A program made the position numbers and the translations under genes. DNA of 32,336 nt. Source: Candidatus Rokuibacteriota bacterium (GTDB lineage Bacteria > Methylomirabilota > Methylomirabilia > Rokubacteriales > CSP1-6). Under the pieces are notes generated by a model. It worked only from the letters and a program-made list of their open reading frames with translations. It was not told the origin of the DNA and ran no database searches. Where the stretch lies: positions 1 to 32,336 of the forward strand of contig JACQWB010000190.1 of NCBI GenBank assembly GCA_016209385.1, written 5' to 3'. Shown piece by piece: positions 17,906 through 20,698 of this stretch (its first letter is position 1; every line of letters starts with the position of its first letter).

Positions 17906-19399
17906 CTAGGTGTGGGCGCCAGCCCGTTGGGCCCCGAGGGGGACGTGGACGTAAAGCTCGGCAGGCTGCGGCCTGGGCGTGGCGAGCGGAGGCGGCCGCA
18001 TCGGGTACTTGATTTCCCTGAAGTGATCCGCGTATTGCCGCTCCGGGTTATAGACGGTGCCGAACTTCCAGAGCATCCGGACGAAGTTCGTCTGGCCGTG
18101 GAGGAGAAGCCGGAGGGCGGATGTCGCTGTGCGCCGAAGCGCGGCAACGCCGAGGTGCTTGCGGTTCAGCACCGCCTGCGTCTTGACCAGCTCCTCGTAG
18201 AAGCGCCGGAGCGGCAGCCGGGTGGGCAGGACAGCGTGCTGGACGTCGAAGAGCCGGTAATCGAGCGTGGTGAGCTTCCGCGCCTCGGTGCGCCAGGTCT
18301 CGGTTCCCGGATAGGGGGTGTTCACCGTGAGGTGGACGATCTCGGGGACGCTCAGGGCCCACTCCCGGATCGCCGCGAAGCGGCGCTCGTCCCAATCCGG
18401 GTCCGCGATGATGTTGACAGCCACCGTGAGGCCGAGGGCGCGCGCCACCTCCAGGGCCTTGAAGTTCTCGCCCGGCGTGACGCGCTTTCGGTGGAGCTTG
18501 AGGCCTTCCTCGTCGAGGGCCTCGAGCCCCAGGAACATGTAGCGGAGCCCGAGCCGTTTCCAGTAGGCGAAGACCTCCCGGTTCCGGATCAGGACATCGC
18601 ACCGTGTCTCGAGGTAGTACTGCTTCCGGATCTTCCGGCGCTCGATTTCCCGCCCGATGGCGGAGCCGTGCTCGGGCTGGATGAAGGCGACATCATCCAC
18701 GAGGAAGACGTTGGGTTCCTGGATCCGCGCCAGATCCTCGGCGGCGGCCTCCGGGGACAGCTTGCGGTAGCTCCGGCCGTAAAAGGTCCAGGCACTGCAG
18801 AAGGCGCAGTCCCACGGACAGCCGCGCGTGAGCTCGATCGACGCGCACGGGTCGAGGATTCCGATGAAATACTTGCGCCGGCGCCGGGTCAGGTCCCGGG
18901 CGGGAAGATGTCGGTCGAGGCTGTCCAGCAGCGTGGGCGGCGGCCCGGTCCCGTTCAGCGCGACCACGCCCGGGAGCTTCTCGATGCCTCGCCCACCAAC
19001 CGCTTCCAGGAGCCTCGGGGTGATGGCCTCGCCCTCGCCGCGCACCACGCAGTCGAGGGCCCCGCGGGCATGCTCGAGGAGCTCCGGAGTGATGAACGAG
19101 GCGCTGTGCCCGCCCACAAAGACGAAGCAGCGCCGCAGGAGACGCTTTGTCGCTGCGGCCAGGTCGATCACCTCGGGAACGTTCGCGAGGTAGTTCAGCG
19201 AGAAGCCCACCGCGTCCGGCTTGAAGGCGTTGAGTTCGCGGTGGAAGTGATGGTGCCGGAAGATCTGGAGATCGAGCAGTCGCACGTCGTGCCCCGCCGA
19301 GCGGGCGGCCGCCGCCACCCGCTCCAGCCCGAGCGGCTCCAGCCTCAGGTACAGCTCGGAGTACATCAACGGGCTGGGATGCACCAAAAGGAGGCGAAT
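17906..19399 (-). CDS. hpnR: B12-binding radical SAM protein, hopanoid C-3 methylase
   Basis: HpnR adds a methyl group at C-3 of hopanoids using cobalamin and radical SAM chemistry. The protein (497 aa from the start chosen here) has an N-terminal B12-binding-type domain (VHPSPLMYSELYLRLEPLG, GFSLNYLANVPEVIDLA, FVGGHSASF) and a radical SAM core. The cluster motif is CPWDCAFC (Cys 194, 198, 201), after ELTRG. A conventional caller would use TTG 19387, but that lacks a ribosome-binding site and truncates the family N-terminus. ATT 19397-19399 has GGAGG five nt upstream and aligns with the expected M-R-x-L-L-V-H start. The gene follows mlaA paralogue 2 by 54 nt. Confidence 0.87.
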   Translation of the reverse strand: MRLLLVHPSPLMYSELYLRLEPLGLERVAAAARSAGHDVRLLDLQIFRHHHFHRELNAFKPDAVGFSLNYLANVPEVIDLAAATKRLLRRCFVFVGGHSASFITPELLEHARGALDCVVRGEGEAITPRLLEAVGGRGIEKLPGVVALNGTGPPPTLLDSLDRHLPARDLTRRRRKYFIGILDPCASIELTRGCPWDCAFCSAWTFYGRSYRKLSPEAAAEDLARIQEPNVFLVDDVAFIQPEHGSAIGREIERRKIRKQYYLETRCDVLIRNREVFAYWKRLGLRYMFLGLEALDEEGLKLHRKRVTPGENFKALEVARALGLTVAVNIIADPDWDERRFAAIREWALSVPEIVHLTVNTPYPGTETWRTEARKLTTLDYRLFDVQHAVLPTRLPLRRFYEELVKTQAVLNRKHLGVAALRRTATSALRLLLHGQTNFVRMLWKFGTVYNPERQYADHFREIKYPMRPPPLATPRPQPAELYVHVPLGAQRAGAHT

Positions 19400-19453
19400 C
19401 GTTTCCTCCGCGATTGTTTCGAAATCTCTCGCGTGGGAGCCCGTCCGCTCCCG

Positions 19454-20572
19454 TCAGGGCTGGCGGAACAACTGCTCCTTGACGGCGTCCCTGATGACTC
19501 TGTCCCGGCGCTGGAGGTACGCGTTCCGCACGGCGCTATAGAGGTCGAGGACGGTCTCTTCGACGGTCTCAAACAGCTCCAGGTTGAACGCCCGGTCGTT
19601 GATGCGGTCCGCTGCCGGGATAGCCAGCAGCGCCGCGGTCGGGAAGATGACGTAGTTGAACGGATCGAGCGCCCCATCAATGGCGAGGCCGATTCCGTCG
19701 CGGACCGTGAGGGGGGGCAAGAAGGGCAGGTTCAGGTACGGCCCGGGCCCCACGCCGTAGACTCCGAAGGTCTGCCCGGTGTCCGCGTCCTTCTTTTCGA
19801 TGCCCAGGGGCTTCGCGACGTCAAACAGCCCGCCGATCCCGAACGTGCTATTGACGAGAAACCGTGCCAGTTCCAGGCCGGCAGCTTCGAGTCGGAGCTG
19901 GAAGAGCTTGTTCACGAAGCGGCGCGGCATGCCGAGGTTATCGACCGCATCTTTCAGGCTCCGCTGCACGCGGTCGGGCAGGATCTTGTCCCACGCCTTT
20001 GCCACCGGCTTCACGACGAACTGATCGAGCTTCCGATTAAAAGTGAACATGGCTTCGTTGAAGGGCTCCCACGGGTCGTATTCCTCGATGAATTCTTCCC
20101 GCCGAAGCTCCAGTGAGGCCTTCATGACTCCTGCGGCGTCCGAGCCGGGGTCCGTGCTGGCAAGGCGAACAGCGTGCCGGAGCATCTCCGCGTCGGCGAC
20201 CCTGTCGGTCTCGGTGTCGAACAGGCCGCGGGTGGTGAGGCTCAACCCTTCCAGGCGGACGTCGATGGCGGGTGCGATCGAGGCGTGGGAGAGGCTTGGG
20301 AAGGACGCGTCTAAGAAGGCTTCGGCGTGGTTCGGCCGCCCGGTAGCCGGGCCACGCTCCTCGTCAGCGAAGACGGCGGTCAGGGGCCGGAGGAGGTCGG
20401 CGGTGACCGGCCCCGCCGCTGAAGCCTCGACCGCATAACCGGGCTGGGGTTTGCGGAGGACACCGTCGTCTAACTCCACGGCTGCACCGGCCACCCCGGC
20501 TATGCTCGCGACCAGAGCGGCGACAACCACTGCGACCATCCGCGCCGGTGACCCGCTGGGCGCGCGTGTCAT
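19454..20572 (-). CDS. mlaA: MlaA/VacJ family protein, paralogue 2 with N-terminal extension
   Basis: The 372-aa protein contains the full MlaA core from about residue 145 (EEYDPWEPFNEAMFTFNRKL through the GPGPYLNLP and DPFNY blocks to the C-terminus). It is closely related to paralogue 1. Between the signal-like segment (residues about 10-30, ending VAGAA) and the core lies an extra region of about 115 residues with no recognisable domain. No cysteine is present, so it cannot be a conventional lipoprotein. ATG 20570-20572 has AAGGAGGAG directly upstream. It lies between the P450 and hpnR in the same orientation, linking lipid transport with hopanoid modification. Confidence 0.87.
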   Translation of the reverse strand: MTRAPSGSPARMVAVVVAALVASIAGVAGAAVELDDGVLRKPQPGYAVEASAAGPVTADLLRPLTAVFADEERGPATGRPNHAEAFLDASFPSLSHASIAPAIDVRLEGLSLTTRGLFDTETDRVADAEMLRHAVRLASTDPGSDAAGVMKASLELRREEFIEEYDPWEPFNEAMFTFNRKLDQFVVKPVAKAWDKILPDRVQRSLKDAVDNLGMPRRFVNKLFQLRLEAAGLELARFLVNSTFGIGGLFDVAKPLGIEKKDADTGQTFGVYGVGPGPYLNLPFLPPLTVRDGIGLAIDGALDPFNYVIFPTAALLAIPAADRINDRAFNLELFETVEETVLDLYSAVRNAYLQRRDRVIRDAVKEQLFRQP

Positions 20573-20582
20573 GGTCTCCTCC

Positions 20583-20601
20583 TTTCCGTCATAGACGGAA
20601 A
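20583..20601. promoter_or_regulatory. perfect inverted repeat upstream of mlaA paralogue 2
   Basis: TTTCCGTC - ATA - GACGGAAA is a perfect 8-bp inverted repeat with a 3-nt centre. It ends 10 nt before the ATG and overlaps the approach to the ribosome-binding site. It could be a repressor operator or a small hairpin hiding the site. The protein bound, if any, is unknown. Confidence 0.35.
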
Positions 20602-20698
20602 TATCAAAGGCGTTCTCGGGCTCCATGGCCCGGCGAAGGCCAACCCCGCGCTGAGGGCAACCTCCGTCCTCGAACCCTCCCCCGGCCCCACGGTGCGT

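Follow-up and report, generated by a model that had tools for sequence, protein, structure and literature searches.

A probable AUU start of the hopanoid C-3 methylase gene hpnR in Rokubacteria

Known genes with AUU and other unusual starts

AUU starts outside infC are known in few genes. One of them is pcnB of Escherichia coli, which has an AUU start and is translationally limited; it resembles the reading proposed below for hpnR as an enzyme gene kept low by AUU, although it is an unrelated gene from another phylum. The gene for initiation factor IF3 itself, infC, starts with ATT under IF3 autocontrol in E. coli and with ATC in Streptomyces (PMC5472188). Like hpnR in this study, infC of these organisms has an unusual start after a strong Shine-Dalgarno; the infC start is conserved across species, and the ATT of hpnR across three species of one genus. 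In contrast to infC, hpnR encodes a lipid-modifying enzyme and thus offers no feedback on IF3, and IF3 control would here be deduced by analogy.

Genes other than infC with AUU, AUA or GUC starts have also been published (PMC13009471, PMC5472188). The sigR gene of Streptomyces starts with GTC and is repressed by IF3 (PMC5472188), which makes it a precedent for a gene other than infC put under IF3 through its start codon; it differs from hpnR in having GTC rather than ATT, in encoding a sigma factor and in having been tested experimentally. In Staphylococcus aureus, cvfC1 (AUU) and ccpN (AUA) show strong Shine-Dalgarno pairing, and the start and pairing of cvfC1 are described as conserved in Staphylococci (PMC13009471). 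These two genes share with hpnR an AUU or AUA start with a strong Shine-Dalgarno, but they were studied by ribosome profiling and reporters, whereas the hpnR start is known from sequence and its Shine-Dalgarno, GGAGG, is not extended. Our literature search found no paper on the hpnR start codon, nor on hpnR in Rokubacteria. Based on the comparisons presented below, it is probable that hpnR truly starts at AUU, and that this start is weak and could be discriminated against by IF3; we infer its regulation from this.

The hpnR locus and its start region

The window, i.e. the whole stretch of DNA that was analysed (32,336 nucleotides), is contig C190 of G000, a draft genome of 4.57 Mb in 310 contigs with 95% completeness, whose named relatives belong to Rokuibacteriota/Methylomirabilota. 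In a profile search, hpnR matched TIGR04367 with 864.2 bits (cut-off 650) over profile positions 1-489 of 490, and position 1 of the profile falls on the ATT codon (Table 1). On the minus strand, the start region reads GCGGAGGAAACG followed by ATT CGC CTC CTT TTG GTG CAT CCC AGC CCG, and the frame read from ATT gives I-R-L-L-L-V-H-P-S-P. The sequence-only reading had placed the ATT, the GGAGG and the 5-nt gap between them on exactly these bases, and its N-terminus (x-R-L-L-L-V-H-P-S-P) agrees with both the translation and the profile. It had also stated that no usual start lies in frame upstream for at least 13 codons, which understated the case: there is no in-frame ATG, GTG or TTG back to the TGA at 19456-19454, 19 codons away.

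Table 1. Features of the hpnR start region and its surroundings in the window
Feature	Coordinates	Strand	Description
hpnR, hopanoid C-3 methylase	17906..19399	-	497 codons counted from ATT; TIGR04367 match
ATT, putative initiation codon of hpnR	19397..19399	-	relatives have ATG/GTG at the homologous position; ATT also in G040, G054 and G009
GGAGG, Shine-Dalgarno of hpnR	19405..19409	-	5 nt gap to ATT; best anti-SD duplex -9.5 kcal/mol
TTG, hpnR codon 5	19385..19387	-	first in-frame usual start downstream of ATT; without Shine-Dalgarno
GTG, hpnR codon 6	19382..19384	-	second in-frame usual start; without Shine-Dalgarno
TGA ending the mlaA-like gene; also the nearest in-frame stop before hpnR	19454..19456	-	
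MlaA/VacJ-like lipoprotein gene, adjoining hpnR upstream	19454..20626	-	NF011672 110.8 bits, under the cut-off of 375

The neighbours of hpnR in the window are hopanoid and lipid genes (HpnN-like, MlaA-like, HpnA and HpnM-like, with the HpnN, MlaA and HpnM matches under their cut-offs), and the hopanoid pathway genes shc (C215:28745-30655) and hpnH (C215:31600-32556) were found elsewhere in the same genome. The radical-SAM motif CxxxCxxC is present at C194, C198 and C201 and invariant across 35 aligned HpnR sequences. The mlaA-like gene and hpnR share one frame, with 54 nt between them and the single TGA as separator (window 19397-19456). Readthrough across this TGA into an MlaA-HpnR product was considered and dropped, the upstream gene being a different one in the other genomes with ATT. 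As a separate observation, three otherwise full-length genes in related genomes carry one in-frame stop each: shc with TGA (G047:C84), shc with TAG (G023:C301) and argH with TAG (G039:C112).

The combination of GGAGG and ATT is by itself not significant. The window contains 178 GGAGG motifs on both strands, four of which have an ATT at a spacer of 5-9 nt, compared with about 4.1 expected (178 x 5 x 0.0046, the last being the ATT frequency). The case rests on homology: what exceeds chance is the position of the hpnR ATT on the homologous start column of the alignment. All relatives read have ATG or GTG there, bar three, which likewise have ATT.

Translation might instead begin at the TTG of codon 5 or the GTG of codon 6, the usual codons in frame four or five codons inside, which would give a slightly shorter protein that retains H7 and P8. 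The earlier description of TTG 19387 as the first conventional in-frame start, lacking a ribosome-binding site, agrees with the sequence, and neither codon has a Shine-Dalgarno. Relatives begin at the ATT column, and the other genomes with ATT do not have these two codons. The predicted HpnR structure (mean pLDDT 81, pTM 0.86) reaches a pLDDT of 94 across residues 1-10 and places strand 1 at residues 2-7, so that this strand would be cut by an internal start; a start at the TTG would halve it. We regard internal initiation as very improbable, and initiation at AUU as likely in G000.

Start codons in relatives and two origins of ATT

We compared the start column of hpnR across the class, in which 37 of 95 genomes gave a match (E 1e-40). 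Within the family of the window (f1), a match was found in 25 of 57 genomes. Leaving out G026, whose gene is cut by a contig end, and with G027 read by hand, 24 starts were readable, 20 ATG and four ATT. The four ATT genomes are G000 (genus g1) and G040, G054 and G009 (genus g9); six further g9 genomes have ATG at this position. Family f5 showed GTG in eleven genomes (two alike) and family f8 ATG in one. A comparison with 80 named hpnR loci of other genomes, 69 of which were counted after removal of 11 duplicates of class genomes, gave ATG in 64, with two of these placed one codon further upstream, GTG in five and ATT in none. An exact-pattern scan of 99 genomes returned exactly four ATT sites in four genomes, and the reversed control pattern returned none. 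Among these relatives, hpnR is broken across two frames in G019 (L121), and its N-terminal part is off frame in G008 (L122).

For G000 itself, the genome set holds no closer hpnR: the sole genome of the same genus (64% complete) gave no hpnR match. G000 is alone in its genus and draws its nearest ATT support from another genus. The true codon might be ATG, with ATT due to an error in sequencing or consensus of this one assembled genome or to the base of a minority strain. This would fit a single base in a draft of 310 contigs and the rarity of published AUG-to-AUU switches, of which a survey counted one among 61,358 ancestral AUG starts (PMC5622118). Nevertheless, such an error is unlikely, because G040, G054 and G009 share ATT at the same codon and form a single clade distinct from the lineage of G000, and because GGAGG stands at all four ATT sites. 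An error confined to G000 keeps a small probability. The sequence-only reading had named a misread ATG as its main alternative and proposed comparing the codon in relatives. That comparison, with ATT of separate origin in three further species, considerably weakens the alternative and, together with the conserved start column and the Shine-Dalgarno, lends good support to its proposal of an ATT start.

In the HpnR tree (103 rows), G040, G054 and G009 form one clade (aLRT 89), which sits within a branch that also contains Nitrospira and Methylococcaceae sequences, and G000 lies in another branch. The ATT label requires two changes on this tree, and the starred branches force two. According to this reconstruction, ATG-to-ATT arose twice independently in hpnR of family f1, and one origin was kept in three species. 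For the g9 clade, we consider AUU initiation likely, with a higher estimate than for G000. A gene that switched twice, independently, within a single family would hint at selection keeping HpnR output low or conditional.

Upkeep of the hpnR frame

Within the ATT clade of g9, hpnR is entire only in G040; the gene of G054 ends at a contig edge and that of G009 is divided between two contigs. G054 and G009 have an in-frame TAG eight codons upstream of ATT. In all three genomes the first usual start after ATT comes at codon 12, and in G054 and G009 this ATG falls beyond the conserved HPGP motif. Codons 2-11 of the three sequences differ only synonymously. The hpnR frames are under purifying selection: omega was 0.095-0.240 for ATT-ATT pairs (the top value coming from a 136-codon piece) and 0.033-0.187 for ATG-ATG siblings, with dS of about 0.5 in two of the three g9 pairs, and pairwise values for G000 were 0.185-0.252. 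The values for ATT-ATT and ATG-ATG pairs are NG86 estimates. Because of the upstream TAG, the distance to codon 12, the synonymous-only differences and the low omega, the frame including its first codons has been maintained ever since ATT arose, at least in g9; in G000, the change may be very recent or old.

This bears on the possibility that hpnR is decaying, with ATG lost and ATT the mark of a gene on its way out. The gene is missing from most of f1 and frame-broken in G019 and G008, and matches to both shc and hpnH are lacking in G009 and a match to hpnH in G040, as might be expected of incomplete bins or of a fading pathway. Decay is nonetheless quite unlikely, considering that in the window the frame is intact for 497 codons with the radical-SAM cysteines 194/198/201 retained, that omega is far below 1 in the g9 clade despite the dS noted above, and that shc and hpnH were both found in G000 and G054. 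Contig gaps would equally account for missing shc or hpnH in fragmented assemblies. Gene finders limited to ATG, GTG and TTG clip this protein by four residues in G000 and by 11 in G040, G054 and G009.

infC, Shine-Dalgarno strength and possible IF3 sensitivity

The infC gene was found above the cut-off in 52 of 57 f1 genomes, and 53 had a match. In all 30 loci read, the start was other than ATG, GTG or TTG (ATC 19, ATA 8, CTG 3), and in 18 of the 30 the whole stretch from the upstream stop to the conserved R(I/V)N contains no ATG, GTG or TTG. Unlike the hpnR start, it was never ATT. In G000, infC (L229) starts with ATC, with GGGAGGAG upstream; a GTG lies ten codons before the ATC, beyond the Shine-Dalgarno. 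The N-terminus of infC is probably misannotated by gene finders in this family (L225-L254). The statement of the sequence-only reading that such starts are known in infC of enterobacteria and rare elsewhere was too narrow, in view of these infC loci and of the published AUU, AUA and GUC starts of other genes.

Eight control genes, each sought at 30 loci of f1 (240 possible starts), gave 167 readable starts, 166 of them usual; the other 73 were missed by the motif or off the locus. The set includes highly expressed genes, which are biased to ATG. A further control, argH, yielded no loci. The single exception is hpnA of G035 (L309), which has no ATG, GTG or TTG near its start and in which CTG AAG ACC ATT CTG GTC after GAGGAT suggests that the start is perhaps CTG. 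A genome-wide background, drawn from unsorted ORFs on stretches of G000, G053, G004 and G054, was not used, since it contained many shadow frames and not enough orthologous starts. Neighbourhood clustering gave 22 clusters including one of hpnR, the start columns of the others often being unclear; the ATT of cluster 9 stands in an internal-looking column (ATG, GTG, GTG, ATT, GTC), with an alternative column of GTG in all five rows, and was not counted. As judged from these sequences, unusual starts are rare in f1, yet an infC of the IF3-target type is universal among the loci read. Given this combination, the natural guess is that IF3 also discriminates against the hpnR AUU.

According to the proposed mechanism, GGAGG five nucleotides upstream would position the 30S subunit on the AUU. 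The initiator tRNA, whose anticodon is CAU, would make an imperfect third-position contact, so that initiation would be inefficient and IF3 could discriminate against it, as it does at infC. HpnR would then be full-length but scarce, its level tracking IF3 activity. We infer that ribosomes begin at AUU, that the yield is low and sensitive to IF3, and that the cell may benefit. IF3 and third-base pairing have been studied in a test-tube system (PMC10158994). An IF3-sensitive low output of hpnR, and with it weak or conditional translation, is plausible in view of the published work on AUU and IF3 and of infC, which begins with ATC in G000. For cvfC1 of S. aureus, the AUU start was found to have no medium-dependent effect (PMC13009471), so that such a start need not be conditional. 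A more far-reaching idea, which we put forward tentatively and hold to be rather doubtful, is that Rokubacteria possess a start-codon regulon read by IF3 beyond infC, which hpnR would have entered twice through ATG-to-ATT changes with a strong Shine-Dalgarno, tying C-3 methylation to the balance of IF3 to ribosomes and hence to growth state. The products of HpnR-type lipid tailoring serve as geological biomarkers.

GGAGG at a usable distance was found at all four ATT sites and at 5 of 20 ATG sites in f1 (Fisher p 0.012, without correction for relatedness); duplex energies of ATT and ATG sites gave p 0.056. Given the relatedness of these species and just two origins of ATT, the association of a strong Shine-Dalgarno with ATT starts is suggestive. 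A tendency of weaker starts to have stronger Shine-Dalgarno sequences has been published (PMC5622118), and the association is in keeping with it. In predicted folds of the start regions, no mRNA hairpin common to the ATT sites was found. On the minus strand of the window (19390-19409), CCTCC of codons 2-4 is complementary to GGAGG, and their pairing would place ATT within a loop of 10 nt, with TTTT after it; this pairing was set aside, as it is not common to the other ATT sites and Leu-Leu codons make such pairing common. Finally, three loci with ATG starts (L026 in G018, L028 in G044 and L031 in G035) have no Shine-Dalgarno at hpnR; a TACAAT lies some 8-10 nt upstream of the ATG, as if the mRNA were leaderless.
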